From IMG/VR virus record IMGVR_UViG_3300037065_000039, positions 1 to 37,915 of that record: a stretch of 37,915 nucleotides of DNA; one strand, 5' to 3'. Every line of letters starts with the position of its first letter. Within the stretch, counting starts at the first letter, position 1. This DNA is from a virus. The notes beneath the pieces are model-generated. The model searched no databases. It saw nothing but the letters and a program-made list of their open reading frames with translations, and was not told the DNA's origin. A program made the position numbers and the translations under genes. This document shows positions 1 to 36,115 of this stretch, piece by piece.

Positions 1-1
1 T

Positions 2-100
2 AAAAGCCTTGATGATATTTATACCTGCGAGCAAATAGCTAGCTTGGTTAAAAATAGTTATGGTTATGAAAAATTTATAGAAAAAATGAAAAGACTTTAG
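2..100 (+). CDS. Partial CDS, C-terminal end of an unknown protein
   Basis: An open frame enters from the left edge and ends at TAG 98-100, giving about 32 residues (ending IEKMKRL). The start lies outside the window. The next gene starts at 102, immediately after the stop, so the two are probably co-transcribed. Only a short charged tail is visible and no family can be assigned. Confidence 0.5.
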   Translation, partial: KSLDDIYTCEQIASLVKNSYGYEKFIEKMKRL

Positions 101-101
101 T

Positions 102-500
102 ATGGAAAAAATAAACACGGCAGAAATTCAAGAAGGTGACATCGTTCATTTTAGAAACGGGGGGAAGAGCGAGGTTGTTCTGCAACCTTATGGATTTATT
201 ACCAATTACCCTGCACATTTGTCTATAGGTAATATAGAAATGAAGAATTGGATACAGGCTGGTAAATATATAGGAAGAGCTGATTTCCCTTGTTGGAACA
301 CGGGGTTTGACATCGTTAGGGTGGAGAAAAAGAAGATGGTGGGAGCCATTTTTTATTTTGCTCAAAACTTCAATCCAGCTCAATCAACAATTAGATTTGA
401 GGAACTTTCTAGTCTAATGGTGGCTTTTCAAGGCAAAGTATTTGATGCTATTTACAAAATAACCGTCACCCCAACCACTCAAACTATAGAAAGACTTTAG
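102..500 (+). CDS. Hypothetical phage protein, 132 aa
   Basis: The frame starts at ATG 102, one base after the preceding stop, and ends at TAG 498-500. The N-terminal part (EGDIVHFRNGG, then FDIVRVEK at about residues 67-74) looks like a small beta-rich module of the kind seen in short phage accessory proteins. The C-terminal half is less distinctive. There are no membrane segments or signal peptide. It ends with IERL-stop, and its last bases plus the next start form the same 15-base string found at its own start junction. I do not recognise a function. It is the second of at least five small plus-strand genes packed head to tail. Confidence 0.6.
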   Translation: MEKINTAEIQEGDIVHFRNGGKSEVVLQPYGFITNYPAHLSIGNIEMKNWIQAGKYIGRADFPCWNTGFDIVRVEKKKMVGAIFYFAQNFNPAQSTIRFEELSSLMVAFQGKVFDAIYKITVTPTTQTIERL

Positions 501-504
501 TATG
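490..504 (+). repeat. 15-bp repeat at a gene junction (second copy; first at 90-104)
   Basis: AAAGACTTTAGTATG occurs at 90-104 and again at 490-504. In both copies it contains the last codons and TAG of one gene and the ATG of the next. Two consecutive gene junctions therefore have the same sequence exactly 400 bases apart. Confidence 0.7.
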
Positions 505-693
505 TCAAACCCACCATGCCAACAGCTTGAAGGTGTTTTAGCAAAAATTCGCAAGCAAGATGCTTTAATTAAGGATTTAATGCTTGAAGTATCAGAATTG
601 CGCAAAGAAGTTAAACCAATAATCATTAAACACAAACTGGAAAAGCAACATGAAGAACGGAAAGAGAGGGGAGTTTATGATAAAACTAACTGA
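502..693 (+). CDS. Small coiled-coil protein, 63 aa
   Basis: ATG 502 directly follows the upstream stop. The central region (about residues 8-55) is highly charged with heptad-like leucine, isoleucine and valine spacing, suggesting a short coiled coil or helical hairpin; the C-terminus is Lys/Glu-rich. There is no signal peptide or membrane segment. It overlaps the start of the next gene at 677, implying translational coupling. The function is unknown. Confidence 0.5.
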   Translation: MSNPPCQQLEGVLAKIRKQDALIKDLMLEVSELRKEVKPIIIKHKLEKQHEERKERGVYDKTN

Positions 694-808
694 AAACGAG
701 GTTTTAATCGCCCTTGAGAAGGGGTTAGCAGCAATGGCTAGGCATGAGGTGTGGGCTAGGATTTATGCGATAAAAATGGGGTTTCAAGAAATTAGCAAAA
801 ATCGCTAA
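677..808 (+). CDS. Small hypothetical protein, 43 aa
   Basis: The frame ATG 677 to TAA 806-808 encodes 43 residues, beginning MIKLTENEVLIALEKG. A strong purine-rich ribosome binding site (GAGGGGAG) ends three bases before the ATG, and the gene overlaps the end of the previous one. It is predicted to be mostly helical. No family is recognised. The good ribosome binding site and tight packing make it a likely real gene. Confidence 0.5.
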   Translation: MIKLTENEVLIALEKGLAAMARHEVWARIYAIKMGFQEISKNR

Positions 809-845
809 ACCATCATAACAAAAATAACTTTTAGGGATTAAATAT

Positions 846-1271
846 ATGCTTATAATAAATATGTTAGTGTTTAGTTTGCTGTTCAGACTTTTAGGTGGGG
901 GTTTTTCTGCAAATACAAATTTTCCAAGGTGGATTGTTCTATTGGCTTGCGGGGCAGTAGTTGGTTTTAATATCCCGTTTGGGTGGGGATTGCTGGCTTA
1001 TGGTTACATATTTTGCATATTCCGCCTTTTATCTACAAAACCTCTTTTGCAGGCGACTATGGGTGATGCAAATGGAATATGGAAGTCATCATTGAAAAAC
1101 TGCTTCGCACTTCCCGCTATATTTTATATTGGCAATCCGTGGCTAGTCCTGATTTTCTTTCAAGGAGCTATTTATTATGCTTGTGGTAAAATCACTCGTG
1201 AAGGTGATAAAATCCCTCCAGTTATGTTGGCGGAACTGATTACTGGTGGAATGTTTGGGGCGTTGTTATAA
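846..1271 (+). CDS. Integral membrane protein, 141 aa
   Basis: The product begins MLIINMLVFSLLFRLLGGG and contains about four hydrophobic segments (roughly residues 1-18, 27-45, 47-62 and 88-110) separated by short polar loops. It is therefore a polytopic inner-membrane protein with no cleavable signal. It is last in the plus-strand run from 102, and the convergent gene at 1327-1572 faces it. Small phage membrane proteins at such positions include superinfection-exclusion and lysis-modulating factors, but nothing in the sequence decides between them. Expression as a real gene is likely; the function is unknown. Confidence 0.65.
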   Translation: MLIINMLVFSLLFRLLGGGFSANTNFPRWIVLLACGAVVGFNIPFGWGLLAYGYIFCIFRLLSTKPLLQATMGDANGIWKSSLKNCFALPAIFYIGNPWLVLIFFQGAIYYACGKITREGDKIPPVMLAELITGGMFGALL

Positions 1272-31526: not shown

Positions 31527-31673
31527 TTACCACTTTCTTCTGGGCAAGTCAATAATTTTCTCTAGCTCATCTAATTCAGAATCTAATATATCAAACAATG
31601 GTGATGGTGGGCAATAGGTTATCTTCTTCATCCACTCAGGGGGTATTGGTGTTGGCTCTTGCGGTTTTCTCAT
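31527..31673 (-). CDS. Small hypothetical protein coupled to terminase, 48 aa
   Basis: ATG 31673-31671 overlaps the terminase stop by four bases (ATGA). The product begins MRKPQEPTPIPPEWMKKITY and has an acidic C-terminal helix (LDSELDELEKIIDL). Tight coupling supports it as a real gene. No family is recognised. Confidence 0.5.
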   Translation of the reverse strand: MRKPQEPTPIPPEWMKKITYCPPSPLFDILDSELDELEKIIDLPRRKW

Positions 31674-34600
31674 TTTCTCTTCAATGGGCTAAATGGGTCA
31701 TATTTGCTCTTGTGCTGATGCTGCCCCATATTGGAATACGGATTCTCCTTAAAAATCGGTTGTGCAAAACTTAACATCGCACAATCCATTTTATCTGGAC
31801 TTCGCCCCAACTTCACTTTGACATCATACTTCGGCTCTAATATCATACTATCACCCTTAAACGCGTAACAAGTCTGTGTCAATTCCGCTAATAATTCATC
31901 ATCCTGAGGCAATACACCCCCCGCCTTAATCCACTGAACAAACTCAAACGCCATCTCAGCTCGCTTATTCGCATAACGGGTACTCGCAGCCTTCCCAGCA
32001 TAATGTATTCCTATAGGTGAATATCCTAGTAGATGCAACTGATCAATCCATGAACCACCAAAACCACCTGTATTATCAACAAAACACGCATCCGCCTTAA
32101 TATCCCGCCAATGCCTAGCTACTATCCCAGCTCCCTGTATTCCATCCAACTGCCGATACTGCTGAATAGAAGACATAAAATTACCCTGCCGTGTGCAGAT
32201 AGTAGAAGAATTTCCACTCCACATAGGAACACCTTTGCGCCGAACATAAATGCTCTGAAACTTAGTTGATACACACCAAATCTTGCCTTTGTAATACACT
32301 TTCTTAACATCCCTTTTATGAACACATTTACCATGTGAGTGAGAGCTTTCATAAATAACGAAAGTATCATGTTTGCGAATAACTTTCCTATCCCCAATAT
32401 AGAATATACTTCCTTTTGCTTCTTTCGTTCTCTTAAGACCAGCGCATCCTAATTTAGATAACATTTCATGAATATCATCAGCCAACTGAGGGCTTGAAGT
32501 AATATAACTACGCCCAGTGCCATCCTTTTTGCAAGTACCATCACCTAATAGAAATGAATCAAGAAAATTTCGTATTACTTGCTCGCTACCGTTTTTAATC
32601 TCATCTGGAACTTTCTTATTATAAGCACCAACTCCGCAATTATTCTTAAGATATTCCCCGATAGGGGCTATTGAAAATTCAACTTGCTGGTCTTGCATTC
32701 CTGTAATACCACATTGAATACCCATTCTTGTTAAAAGCTCAACAATCATATCCTGTTTCTTGCCTGGATTCTGAGCAATCAAAGTTCTCATTCTTCCATT
32801 TTTGCGCGTCTCTTGATACACGCACCCTTCACTAACAAACCAACCAAGCAATAAAGCCCAATCCAAATAATTAAATTCCCATTCCCTTTTTCGTAATCCA
32901 CCATTTGGCATCGTTACACTAGAATTAAATTTTATAGTTTTTGGACTTTTTCCGCTCCACCCATTAACTTTCCTAATTACAAAATTCTGCGGCAAATCAC
33001 TGTAAGTCTTAAAAACATATCTATCACTTACTGGATGCGAACGAACCAATAACCTATGGTTATCAGTAATGCAAAAATTCAAATGTTTAGATTCCAATAG
33101 GTTCAATTCACCATTAAAATCATAACAATGAATTTTATCTATCGCTTCCCAGCTCGCTTTATCATGTTCCATAGAGAAAACTTTTTCATTCCCGTGCAGG
33201 TCTGGAAATAGCTTCCATCCTTCATTTGTGAGTATCTCTGTATCATCGGAAAAACAGTCCCCACCTTCCCTAGCAACATCTACACCAAGCACAATAGCAT
33301 GATTCTGATATTCGCTCAGCTTAATGTGCTTTTCCATCGCCTCCCTAACTTCCTCATACCCAATAAGTGAGTTCAAGCTGCTATTAGGAAACTGACCCAA
33401 TATGGAAATCTTGATGAAATCATTATCGCGTCCGTAAATTTTTATTTGCTCCCTCGCCCACTCAATATCAACACGAGGCGAACGCATCGGATCATCAGGG
33501 TCGCTCGTAATCTCTCTTATCCACCACAAATGCCTACTCGTAGTACAAGCAGTATATAGCGGTCCACTCAAATGCGTAGGGTTTCCAGCCTGTAATAACT
33601 TACCAACCTTAGCAGATGAAAGAGCCGCCTCAGCACTAGACATAATAGCATTCGGCATGGAGCTGGATTCATCCAGAACAAACATGATATGGTCGGCGTG
33701 TAACCCAGCTAGCGTGTTACCTAAAGCATTATTATCCGAACTTTTCGTCCATGTCCTCGCACTCACAAACCAAGTTTCGGGATTGGATTTCGCATATATC
33801 CGTGTCTTTGTCCATGTGAATAGCTCTGTGAATAAAGGGGATTTCCCCATCCATAACGCTAACTCCTTCCATAAACCATCTTTCAGATTCGCTTCAGAAA
33901 CAGAGGTCACCGCTATATTCGGCATCGGATAGCAAATTAAAAAATGAAGTGTCATCCATGCTAAGGCTGTAGTATTATGCGTAACAATAAAATCATTCGC
34001 CAAATAACATGACGAGGAATGATCTACAGTTATACACATAACATCTTGTTCACCTACAGACTCAATCCTGTCAATGTATCGCTTCAAATATCTTCGCTTG
34101 GAAGCATTATCAGCAGGAATCCACCTATCAACTTTTCTTTTAATTAAAAAAGGACAAAAATCAGTTCTAATAGTTACACGATAGCAATCCCTGCAATCTA
34201 TCCGTTCGCCATCTTTGCCATAATAAAATGCTTTCTTAACTGTATCCTTTATTACAGCTCTACCACCAAGCGACCGCACAAGCCATACAACATCATCTGC
34301 TAATTGCTTGGAAGTAGTTCCATACTCCATACTACCATTATCTTTTCCAACGAACCCATCAGTGTCCATCAGCCCCGTAAGCAAATCTTTCCGTTGCTGA
34401 ACAGAAGCGTATTTATAACAATCAGGAATAAATCTATTCTGGCTATTAACTCCAAGTAAACCTATCTTACGCAAGCCAACACTTATCCCATATATTGTTT
34501 TGGAAATCCTACCGCTATTACTTAAACTATATCCACGCCGAATAATCTCATCATCAACCTCATGGTCAATTCCAGTGAACATTCCTGATGCAGCAGTTCC

Positions 34601-35200
34601 ATCCCCTAGCCAAACGCCCATAACATAAGAATCTATTGGCTGATGTGAAAACGGAAACTGAACAGCACTGTGACGAGGTATCTCAAATTGCCTACCTGCC
34701 CACTTCCCATTCTTTACACGAACTCCACGCTTGATTATTTCTTCAGTGGAAAGCGTAGACCATATTTCTTCAGTTTTCGTATCTCGCTGATATGGGATTT
34801 TATGCTTCCTCCGACGCTCATCCGCCCCCCTTACAGACCACAAATGATCACCGCAACATTCAGTAAACGAACCATCATCAAAATAAACGCGGTAAGTAGG
34901 TAATACCCCTCTATCATAAACAGCAGATACTCTCGTAGGACTGCCATCAGGCGCAAATACATAATCACCAACCTTAATATCACCCCATCTGGTTTTCCCT
35001 GTCGGAGTGTCAAAAATCATAGACTTAGGTTGCGCTTTTCCAACGCCCTTCGCTGCCTTCATTCCAACACGCTGATGCTTGGAATACGCCATCAATGTCT
35101 CTACCTGCCAAGCATCGGGCTCTACACCAAAACACTCCCGTACAAATACTACAGGATTATCCCTCCATACCCTTATCCTATCTACCAATGCTTTGCTCAT
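31670..35200 (-). CDS. Terminase large subunit interrupted by two inteins, 1176 aa precursor
   Basis: The extein parts add up to a 473-residue terminase: residues 1-55, 410-648 and 998-1176. ATPase: Walker A KGVGK (51-55), continued by TTALAW after intein 1; Walker B IMFVLDE with Asp510 and Glu511. Nuclease: VLGVDVAREGGD (638-648), split by intein 2, with further acidic residues near FVDNTGGFGG and KMDC (1138-1140). The enzyme cuts and pumps DNA into the prohead through the portal. Both inteins must be removed before either active site is whole. The start is ATG 35200, overlapping the small terminase stop by four bases. The end overlaps the 48-residue gene. Confidence 0.95.
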   Translation of the reverse strand: MSKALVDRIRVWRDNPVVFVRECFGVEPDAWQVETLMAYSKHQRVGMKAAKGVGKAQPKSMIFDTPTGKTRWGDIKVGDYVFAPDGSPTRVSAVYDRGVLPTYRVYFDDGSFTECCGDHLWSVRGADERRRKHKIPYQRDTKTEEIWSTLSTEEIIKRGVRVKNGKWAGRQFEIPRHSAVQFPFSHQPIDSYVMGVWLGDGTAASGMFTGIDHEVDDEIIRRGYSLSNSGRISKTIYGISVGLRKIGLLGVNSQNRFIPDCYKYASVQQRKDLLTGLMDTDGFVGKDNGSMEYGTTSKQLADDVVWLVRSLGGRAVIKDTVKKAFYYGKDGERIDCRDCYRVTIRTDFCPFLIKRKVDRWIPADNASKRRYLKRYIDRIESVGEQDVMCITVDHSSSCYLANDFIVTHNTTALAWMTLHFLICYPMPNIAVTSVSEANLKDGLWKELALWMGKSPLFTELFTWTKTRIYAKSNPETWFVSARTWTKSSDNNALGNTLAGLHADHIMFVLDESSSMPNAIMSSAEAALSSAKVGKLLQAGNPTHLSGPLYTACTTSRHLWWIREITSDPDDPMRSPRVDIEWAREQIKIYGRDNDFIKISILGQFPNSSLNSLIGYEEVREAMEKHIKLSEYQNHAIVLGVDVAREGGDCFSDDTEILTNEGWKLFPDLHGNEKVFSMEHDKASWEAIDKIHCYDFNGELNLLESKHLNFCITDNHRLLVRSHPVSDRYVFKTYSDLPQNFVIRKVNGWSGKSPKTIKFNSSVTMPNGGLRKREWEFNYLDWALLLGWFVSEGCVYQETRKNGRMRTLIAQNPGKKQDMIVELLTRMGIQCGITGMQDQQVEFSIAPIGEYLKNNCGVGAYNKKVPDEIKNGSEQVIRNFLDSFLLGDGTCKKDGTGRSYITSSPQLADDIHEMLSKLGCAGLKRTKEAKGSIFYIGDRKVIRKHDTFVIYESSHSHGKCVHKRDVKKVYYKGKIWCVSTKFQSIYVRRKGVPMWSGNSSTICTRQGNFMSSIQQYRQLDGIQGAGIVARHWRDIKADACFVDNTGGFGGSWIDQLHLLGYSPIGIHYAGKAASTRYANKRAEMAFEFVQWIKAGGVLPQDDELLAELTQTCYAFKGDSMILEPKYDVKVKLGRSPDKMDCAMLSFAQPIFKENPYSNMGQHQHKSKYDPFSPLKRK
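32210..33256 (-). other. Intein 2 in the terminase nuclease motif, with LAGLIDADG endonuclease
   Basis: Residues 649-997 of the precursor (349 aa). It starts CFSDDTEILTNEGW (Cys1, block A), has NFCITDNHR (block B), two LAGLIDADG-type motifs LLLGWFVSEG and DSFLLGDG about 100 residues apart, and block F-like IWCVSTKFQSIYVRR, ending WSGN before Ser998. The penultimate residue is Gly, not His, as in a subset of phage inteins. Exteins join as VAREGGD|SSTICTRQG. It is a class 1-type intein (Cys1) with a possible homing endonuclease. Confidence 0.9.
33974..35035 (-). other. Intein 1 in terminase Walker A, class 3-type, with LAGLIDADG endonuclease
   Basis: Residues 56-409 of the precursor (354 aa). 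It begins with Ala56 (AQPKSMIFDTPTGKTRWGD), not Cys or Ser, and ends VTHN before Thr410. The WCT residues of class 3 inteins are present: Trp121 (block B, DHLWSV), Cys389 (block F, VMCITV) and Thr407 (block G, VTHN). Such inteins start splicing at the block F Cys. Endonuclease motifs: YVMGVWLGDG (192-201) and LLTGLMDTDG (273-282). The insertion is inside Walker A, between GK and T. Confidence 0.9.
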
Positions 35201-35730
35201 GAATCCGCTTCAATCACAAGTGGCTTAAAACTATCCAACACAATCTGCTCTAGCGAAAACTTACCCTCAACAGCTACCGCATGTTTATCCCCAAATTCCT
35301 TCGGTGCAATCGCTCGCAATATCTTAAACTCCGTATCAACAATCAGCTTATCACGATTCACATCCTTGCTGCTATGCCCTGTCTCACCCTTCGCTACCTT
35401 CCGCAAATTATAAGCCAGCGTATAAACCCCACCCAGCCTCGCATTCTCTACCTGCTCCTTCGCCTCTGGATTCTTACCGCAGTATTTACGAACACTGGAA
35501 ACTTCAGGCATGCCTTTGCGTAAACACACAACTTCCATCGGCTCACCAAACTCCGCAATGTGCAGACATATATCATCAATCGTCTGCTGCGTGATTCTCT
35601 TGTTTTCTCGTGGTGCTTCCAACTCTGTCGGGCTTCCCTTCTCTGAATAATACCTTTCCAATGCCATTTCCTTGCCCTTCTGAATATATGCCTTAGTATT
35701 CCTCGGTGGTGGTTTCTTAGCGTGTGCCAT
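35197..35730 (-). CDS. Terminase small subunit, 177 aa
   Basis: The product has a basic N-terminus (MAHAKKPPPRNTKAYIQKGK), a helix-turn-helix-like DNA-binding region (about 45-85: ITQQTIDDICLHIAEFGEPM, then SVRKYCGKNPEAKEQVENAR) and a helical C-terminal part (DKLIVDTEFKILRAIAPKEF). This is the usual small terminase layout, recognising the packaging site and stimulating the large subunit. I chose ATG 35730, with GAGGAG five bases upstream; a GTG two codons earlier is possible. It overlaps the large subunit start by four bases and the Hint-like gene by 14 bases. Confidence 0.82.
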   Translation of the reverse strand: MAHAKKPPPRNTKAYIQKGKEMALERYYSEKGSPTELEAPRENKRITQQTIDDICLHIAEFGEPMEVVCLRKGMPEVSSVRKYCGKNPEAKEQVENARLGGVYTLAYNLRKVAKGETGHSSKDVNRDKLIVDTEFKILRAIAPKEFGDKHAVAVEGKFSLEQIVLDSFKPLVIEADS

Positions 35731-36115
35731 GCTCACTCCTCACTTTTACCCCATTAACCAAATAATAATCCCCGCCATCAAGCGTTAATAAATATGTCGG
35801 TATCCGCTTGTTATACTCAATATCAACCTTCAATACCTGCGTCTTATCAGATACCATGTTAATCCTATGCAAATTCCCTAACTTTCTATTATGACTTGGC
35901 AATGTGAATATCTCCTCATCCAAGTCTCCAATAAGCGTAAAATTAACCCCAGTATAATGCGTGTGCAGCGTAACCTCAACAGTTCGATTGCTTTCCTTAA
36001 CACGAATACTTGATACAATACTAGTCCCATCAGGCGTGCTTACAACATCGCCAACAATAATATCCTCAATCGCAATAGTTCCAAGAGGTACAGAAATTCT
36101 CGTGCCTTTAATCAT
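35717..36115 (-). CDS. Free-standing Hint-like (intein/hedgehog) domain protein, 132 aa
   Basis: The opening KGTRISVPLGTIAIEDIIVG, DVVSTPDGT is a Hint block A with N-terminal Cys missing (the start is MIKGTRI). The end, PTYLLTLDGGDYYLVNGVKV, is a block F/G-like pair, but the last residues are RSEHGTR with no HN. It lacks space for an endonuclease. So it should not splice by a standard route; it might be a relic of a mini-intein, a degenerate homing element, or a domain with another job. It is first in the terminase transcript and overlaps the small subunit gene by 14 bases. Confidence 0.65.
   Translation of the reverse strand: MIKGTRISVPLGTIAIEDIIVGDVVSTPDGTSIVSSIRVKESNRTVEVTLHTHYTGVNFTLIGDLDEEIFTLPSHNRKLGNLHRINMVSDKTQVLKVDIEYNKRIPTYLLTLDGGDYYLVNGVKVRSEHGTR

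Follow-up and report, generated by a model that had tools for sequence, protein, structure and literature searches.

Two inteins of different splicing class at the ATPase and nuclease centres of a phage terminase large subunit

Introduction

Pairs of inteins have been described before in the large subunit of phage terminase (TerL). In Microcystis phage Mic1 (MN013189), published in 2020, the ATPase and nuclease domains carry one intein each, and a control of packaging was proposed (PMC7156551). In this article we describe a TerL with the same division, one intein per domain, encoded in a stretch of viral DNA of 37,915 nucleotides (IMG/VR record IMGVR_UViG_3300037065_000039), the whole of which is hereafter called the window. 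The sites are different: read from the Mic1 sequence, they are LLTG↓..HN↓TPKG in the C-motif region of the ATPase and DHL↓..SN↓CDALRY in nuclease motif III (arrows mark splice junctions), whereas in the window the inteins enter Walker A and nuclease motif I. Moreover, both Mic1 inteins begin with Cys, whereas the pair described here combines classes 3 and 1, and an endonuclease was reported in the larger Mic1 intein only (PMC7156551), while both inteins of the window contain one.

A terminase with two inteins was also documented in the Delta group of crAss-like phages (cMAG OBYQ01000140); these are inteins of the Hint-Hop type and occur with recoded stop codons (PMC7886860). The P-loop inteins of mycobacteriophage TerL1-a resemble the first intein of the window in that they separate the Lys and Thr of Walker A, and class 3 inteins with the Trp-Cys-Thr (WCT) triplet were described in phage terminases, but all mycobacteriophage terminase inteins of that study were confined to the ATPase domain, the nuclease domain being free of them (PMC5050341). 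In M. smegmatis, DnaB has a class 3 intein (PDB 6bs8) that is 30% identical to the splicing domain of intein 1 over 118 residues, but the solved chain is a Hint domain of 125 residues, whereas intein 1 sits in a terminase and includes a LAGLIDADG domain. Pectobacterium phage CB7 was considered as an experimental precedent and dismissed, since its terminase has a group I intron and not an intein (PMC7344957). New in comparison with the published doubles are the site pair, the mixture of class 3 and class 1, and the endonucleases in both inteins. A preliminary description of the window had found the occupation of the two catalytic centres by inteins of different class worth noting; the two classes are confirmed, while the novelty was overstated, as a pair in ATPase and nuclease domains has been known from Mic1 since 2020.

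We consider it highly probable that the TerL of the window holds two complete mobile inteins, which were acquired independently and are both spliced before the protein becomes active, probably constitutively. All data employed here are metagenomic sequences.

The interrupted gene and its joined exteins

The TerL precursor (31670..35200; minus strand, as are all features given below) comprises 1176 codons, with both inteins within one open frame. Delimited by its match to intein-free homologues, the N-extein (aa 1-55; 35036..35200) has the GVGK of Walker A at its end. The middle extein (aa 410-648; 33257..33973) provides Walker A Thr410, Walker B LDES (D510-E511) and Asp641 of nuclease motif I (33278..33280), and the C-extein (aa 998-1176, to the stop codon; 31670..32209) contributes nuclease motifs II (D1042) and III (D1139). 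When joined, these segments give a protein of 473 residues, the relatives of which are terminase large subunits; it is ~50% identical to those of Xanthomonas phages SAC and CP2 and of many IMG/VR phages. Sequence alignment places Asp641, Asp1042 and Asp1139 opposite D244, D296 and D444 of Sf6 gp2, which we take to be the Sf6 catalytic triad. Evidently, the joined protein has both characters of an Sf6-like TerL, a Walker A/B ATPase (GVGKT, LDES) and an RNase H-like nuclease triad, and the intact terminase of the preliminary description is thus confirmed. The unspliced precursor itself matches terminase in PHROGs, and no terminase family was matched when Pfam was run on the split precursor.

The same two inserts were found in frame in a separate contig, L001 (IMG/VR 3300002301_000049), from a nearly identical phage, which rules out an assembly error as the source of the double insertion. 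Comparison of the window with L001 gave a ratio of nonsynonymous to synonymous substitution rates (dN/dS) of 0.03 for the middle extein and the C-extein and of 0.25 for intein 1.

Splicing class and catalytic residues

Intein 1 (354 residues, aa 56-409; 33974..35035) extends from Ala56 to Asn409 and parts Lys55 of Walker A from Thr410 (GVGK↓T). Its position 1 is the non-nucleophilic Ala, which is shared by 34 of the 53 terminase P-loop relatives collected. The class 3 triplet is present as Trp66 (B:12), Cys334 (F:4) and Thr352 (G:5) in intein numbering, each of them invariant in all 53, and the C-terminus THN↓T shows His-Asn followed by Thr, as class 3 requires. Both LAGLIDADG acids are kept (D145 and D226). 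By its residues and its predicted Hint fold, the assignment of intein 1 to class 3 holds. Cleavage of the K55 junction would most likely be carried out by the internal Cys334; the N-extein would then be passed to Thr410, and the intein would leave by cyclisation of Asn354, by which Walker A would be rebuilt.

Intein 2 (349 residues, aa 649-997; 32210..33256) begins with Cys649, ends with Asn997 and is followed by Ser998 at +1. It enters at DVAREGGD↓SSTI, eight residues on from the first nuclease aspartate, Asp641, counting the aspartate itself. Cys1, Thr64 and His67 of block B and the terminal Asn349 are invariant in eight motif I inteins; Cys328 is also present, and both LAGLIDADG acids are kept (E143 and D239). 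The residues at B:12 and G:5 are Leu and Ser, respectively, so that the WCT triplet is absent and class 3 is excluded; intein 2 is therefore assigned to class 1, a call that holds at the level of its residues. The penultimate residue is Gly in place of the usual, though non-obligatory, His, and the same Gly is found in all eight motif I inteins. Gly, Lys and Ser have been reported at the penultimate position of class 1 inteins from phages, where a His in one case caused the precursor to build up (PMC5050341). The putative order of events in intein 2 is attack by Cys1, then by Ser998, then by Asn349, which would rebuild the loop after Asp641. Neither the packaging ATPase nor the nuclease should be formed until both inteins have spliced.

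Domain searches and structural models

Pfam recognised LAGLIDADG_3 in two stretches of the precursor (6e-15), and Hom_end as well (4e-6); together with the retained acids, these matches substantiate the endonuclease motifs initially claimed for both inserts. Nothing was found with Intein_splicing (PF14890) in the window record, and this reflects the weak sensitivity of the profile and not the absence of inteins, as the residues and the fold are plain.

An AlphaFold2 model of the whole precursor, built on an alignment of 67 rows, has a mean predicted local distance difference test score (pLDDT) of 83.7 and a predicted template modelling score (pTM) of 0.39, with confidence below 50 around the splice junctions and in a few other places. 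Because of this pTM and the low confidence near the junctions, the placement of the domains is uncertain; the domains themselves are not. Residues 56..404 of the model matched PI-SceI (Z 24.3) and the class 3 DnaB intein 6bs8 (Z 15.9, root-mean-square deviation (rmsd) 1.7), and residues 648..996 matched intein endonucleases (2cw7, Z 24.6). The terminase domains were recognised across the inserts: 13..605, spanning intein 1, against the P74-26 ATPase (Z 20.9, rmsd 3.2) and 610..1149, spanning intein 2, against the Sf6 nuclease (Z 20.2, rmsd 2.6). When modelled separately (pLDDT 87.9, pTM 0.88), intein 2 matched the TliVMA intein (Z 25.7) and also I-DmoI, and its residues 9..357 align with entire inteins of known structure, such as 1..537 of PI-PkoII. 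In these models, both inteins are predicted to consist of Hint and LAGLIDADG folds. Taken together, residues, junctions and folds bear out two inteins of different splicing class, one per catalytic centre.

Empty, singly and doubly occupied terminases

Most homologues that are ~50% identical to the joined exteins lack both inserts, and their alignment runs straight across both sites. Permanent domains at the same positions in homologues, which would have spoken against inteins, were looked for and did not occur. For frequency counts, loci were fetched with the C-terminal extein alone as query, which is blind to both inteins. Five of 55 distinct terminases had the P-loop insert, and one of 61, L001, had that at motif I. 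Site 1 was read from tblastn and hidden Markov model coordinates, as the large alignment misplaces the P-loop in some intein-free rows.

Each site was also found occupied alone: the P-loop in L028, L030, L046 and many others, and motif I in L083, L101, L104, L108, L109, L267 and L275, while L084 and L269, which also carry the motif I intein, are truncated contigs. Four further IMG/VR terminases likewise have two inteins, at other site pairs: P-loop and nuclease motif III in L048 and L228, a position before Walker B and motif I in L082, and P-loop and the Walker B region in L249. In L048 (3081-6569) and L228 (2863-6492), the class 3 P-loop intein is accompanied by a Cys1 intein at motif III (SPDECDA↓C..FN↓C), in the same region as the second intein of Mic1.

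Insertion register in the nuclease loop

The motif I loop, recognisable in 35 of the terminases without inteins, has the constant spacing D-V-A-R-x-G-x-D-x-S/T-V-I. Once joined, the exteins of the carriers fit this loop without a gap, and its length of 12 residues is always kept. The constant spacing and the gapless fit rule out the explanation of shifted registers as an alignment artefact. The intein follows loop residue 4 in L108, residue 6 in L082, L083, L084, L104, L109 and L275, residue 8 in the window and L001, and residue 9 in L101 and L267; L269, read from its C-junction alone, is probably of register 6. Whatever the register, all carriers have Ser or Thr at +1.

In the tree, the intein of the window joins the two register-9 inteins (95/93) within a motif I clade that is itself supported as a whole (92/96); the tree does not resolve how the register-6 rows branch. 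The terminases of the register-9 carriers are also the closest to that of the window (42-49% identity). At loop position 7, Asp is typical of the terminase family to which the window belongs, whereas the register-6 carriers have Ser there, and this Asp may be the reason that the family does not use register 6.

A plausible reading, to which we give a little less than an even chance, is that a single clade of class 1 homing inteins invaded one loop of very divergent terminases in four codon registers. The junctions would have been imprecise and then filtered for a Ser or Thr of the recipient at +1 and for an intact nuclease, so that splicing competence and not a fixed DNA site would set the register. 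Neighbouring insertion sites as such are already known: mycobacteriophage P-loop inteins one residue apart (TerL1-a and TerL1-b) have been reported (PMC5050341). A register shift within one intein clade was not found in the open-access literature that was searched. The insertion-site history is unusual. The move to a neighbouring codon is not explained by standard precise homing, and the homologous inteins at registers 4, 6, 8 and 9 offer a natural series on how homing inteins reach neighbouring codons.

A difference of register was observed at site 1 as well. In L256 (2751-5259) and near-identical contigs, a class 3-like intein lies ahead of the P-loop (AMQA↓..THN↓CKGPGKT) and not at GK↓T.

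Mobility and recombination

The relatives of intein 2 are 40-56% identical to each other, and most of their exteins are only 17-30% identical. As vertical descent would not readily give such inteins in such exteins, the sequences indicate that intein 2 has spread horizontally. These relatives were collected with short peptide patterns, for example CF[DS]D[KQD]TEI, and the sample is biased to that motif. Each LAGLIDADG domain would cut empty terminase alleles of co-infecting phages and thereby copy its own intein in.

Recombination scars were found in the comparison of the window with L001. Intein 2 is almost identical between the two, and 11 of the 16 base differences in the C-extein fall in the first 17 codons after it (p ~2e-8), nearly all of them synonymous. 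The first three codons after intein 1 all differ synonymously (p 3e-4). Within intein 1, codons 194-242 of the endonuclease region differ by 39% and codons 262-316 by 12%, with ~0-1% in the remainder. The clusters suggest recombination, in either direction, and probably co-conversion in homing together with endonuclease swapping.

Two probably independent selfish elements and the alternative explanations

Occurrence at single sites, patchy presence, the spread of intein 2 and the clusters 3' of the inteins favour two independent selfish elements at the sequence level. Several points weigh against this reading or limit it: intein 2 has Gly where His is usual, the window and L001 are one lineage and not an independent evolution of the pair, and the difference clusters have other possible causes than co-conversion.

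The alternative that survives best is splicing as a timer or sensor, in which one or both inteins are slow or depend on a signal and packaging begins late in infection. The interruption of both catalytic centres and the different chemistry of the two classes would suit such a role. The idea is not new, having been put forward in 2020 for Mic1 in a paper that also cites conditional splicing in other inteins (PMC7156551). Nevertheless, 50 of 55 related terminases do without the P-loop insert and 60 of 61 without the motif I insert, each site is found occupied alone, and a block of the P-loop by itself would suffice to stop packaging. The endonuclease patch of intein 1 and the flanks of the inteins recombine, and there is no sequence indication of a trigger. 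The splicing-timed packaging of the preliminary description thus finds no support; it is possible but improbable, and nothing here favours it over selfish inteins, which patchy, singly occurring and recombining elements resemble. A single gene with inteins of classes 3 and 1, both of which would have to splice before either catalytic domain could act and either of which can be removed by itself, would be a clean test object for intein-delayed packaging.

A still smaller chance is given to a linked pair, acquired jointly and homing together. Both contigs of the lineage carry both inteins, but the two are of different class and have different relatives, and other phages carry one or the other. 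In haloarchaeal MCM, two neighbouring active inteins hinder each other's homing, and doubles arise from singly invaded alleles (PMC10643990). The single-intein carriers found here fit this route. Least credible is that one or both inserts no longer splice, with the terminase lost or functional in the form of a fragment or a two-domain protein: the noncanonical penultimate Gly of intein 2 points that way, but it is common to all eight motif I inteins, every catalytic residue is kept in both inserts of two contigs, dN/dS is 0.03 in the adjoining exteins, and TerL is normally essential. Two selfish inteins that occupy conserved DNA of the active sites, are independently mobile and probably spliced at a constitutive rate, from a precursor that would be inactive, thus remain the preferred explanation.

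Further intein 2 relatives and neighbouring genes

Relatives of intein 2 also occur in other terminase-like proteins at DNYD↓SLxG (L112-L124 and L276-L279), several of which come from metagenome 3300035698. In L111 and L162, the Walker B motif itself is split by such relatives (VDEA↓SG). Two single open reading frames (ORFs), L169 and L131, have two or more regions that match the intein 2 profile.

The start of the TerL gene is overlapped by that of the terminase small subunit (35197..35736), which is of the Sf6 type (PF20901, 8e-16; phrog_1482). Just upstream of the latter, and overlapping it, is an orphan Hint_2-like ORF of 132 residues (35717-36115). When relatives of this ORF were sought, only the sister contig matched. 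Cys1 is replaced by Met and the terminal Asn is lacking; judged by these residues, it looks like a splicing-dead Hint domain.

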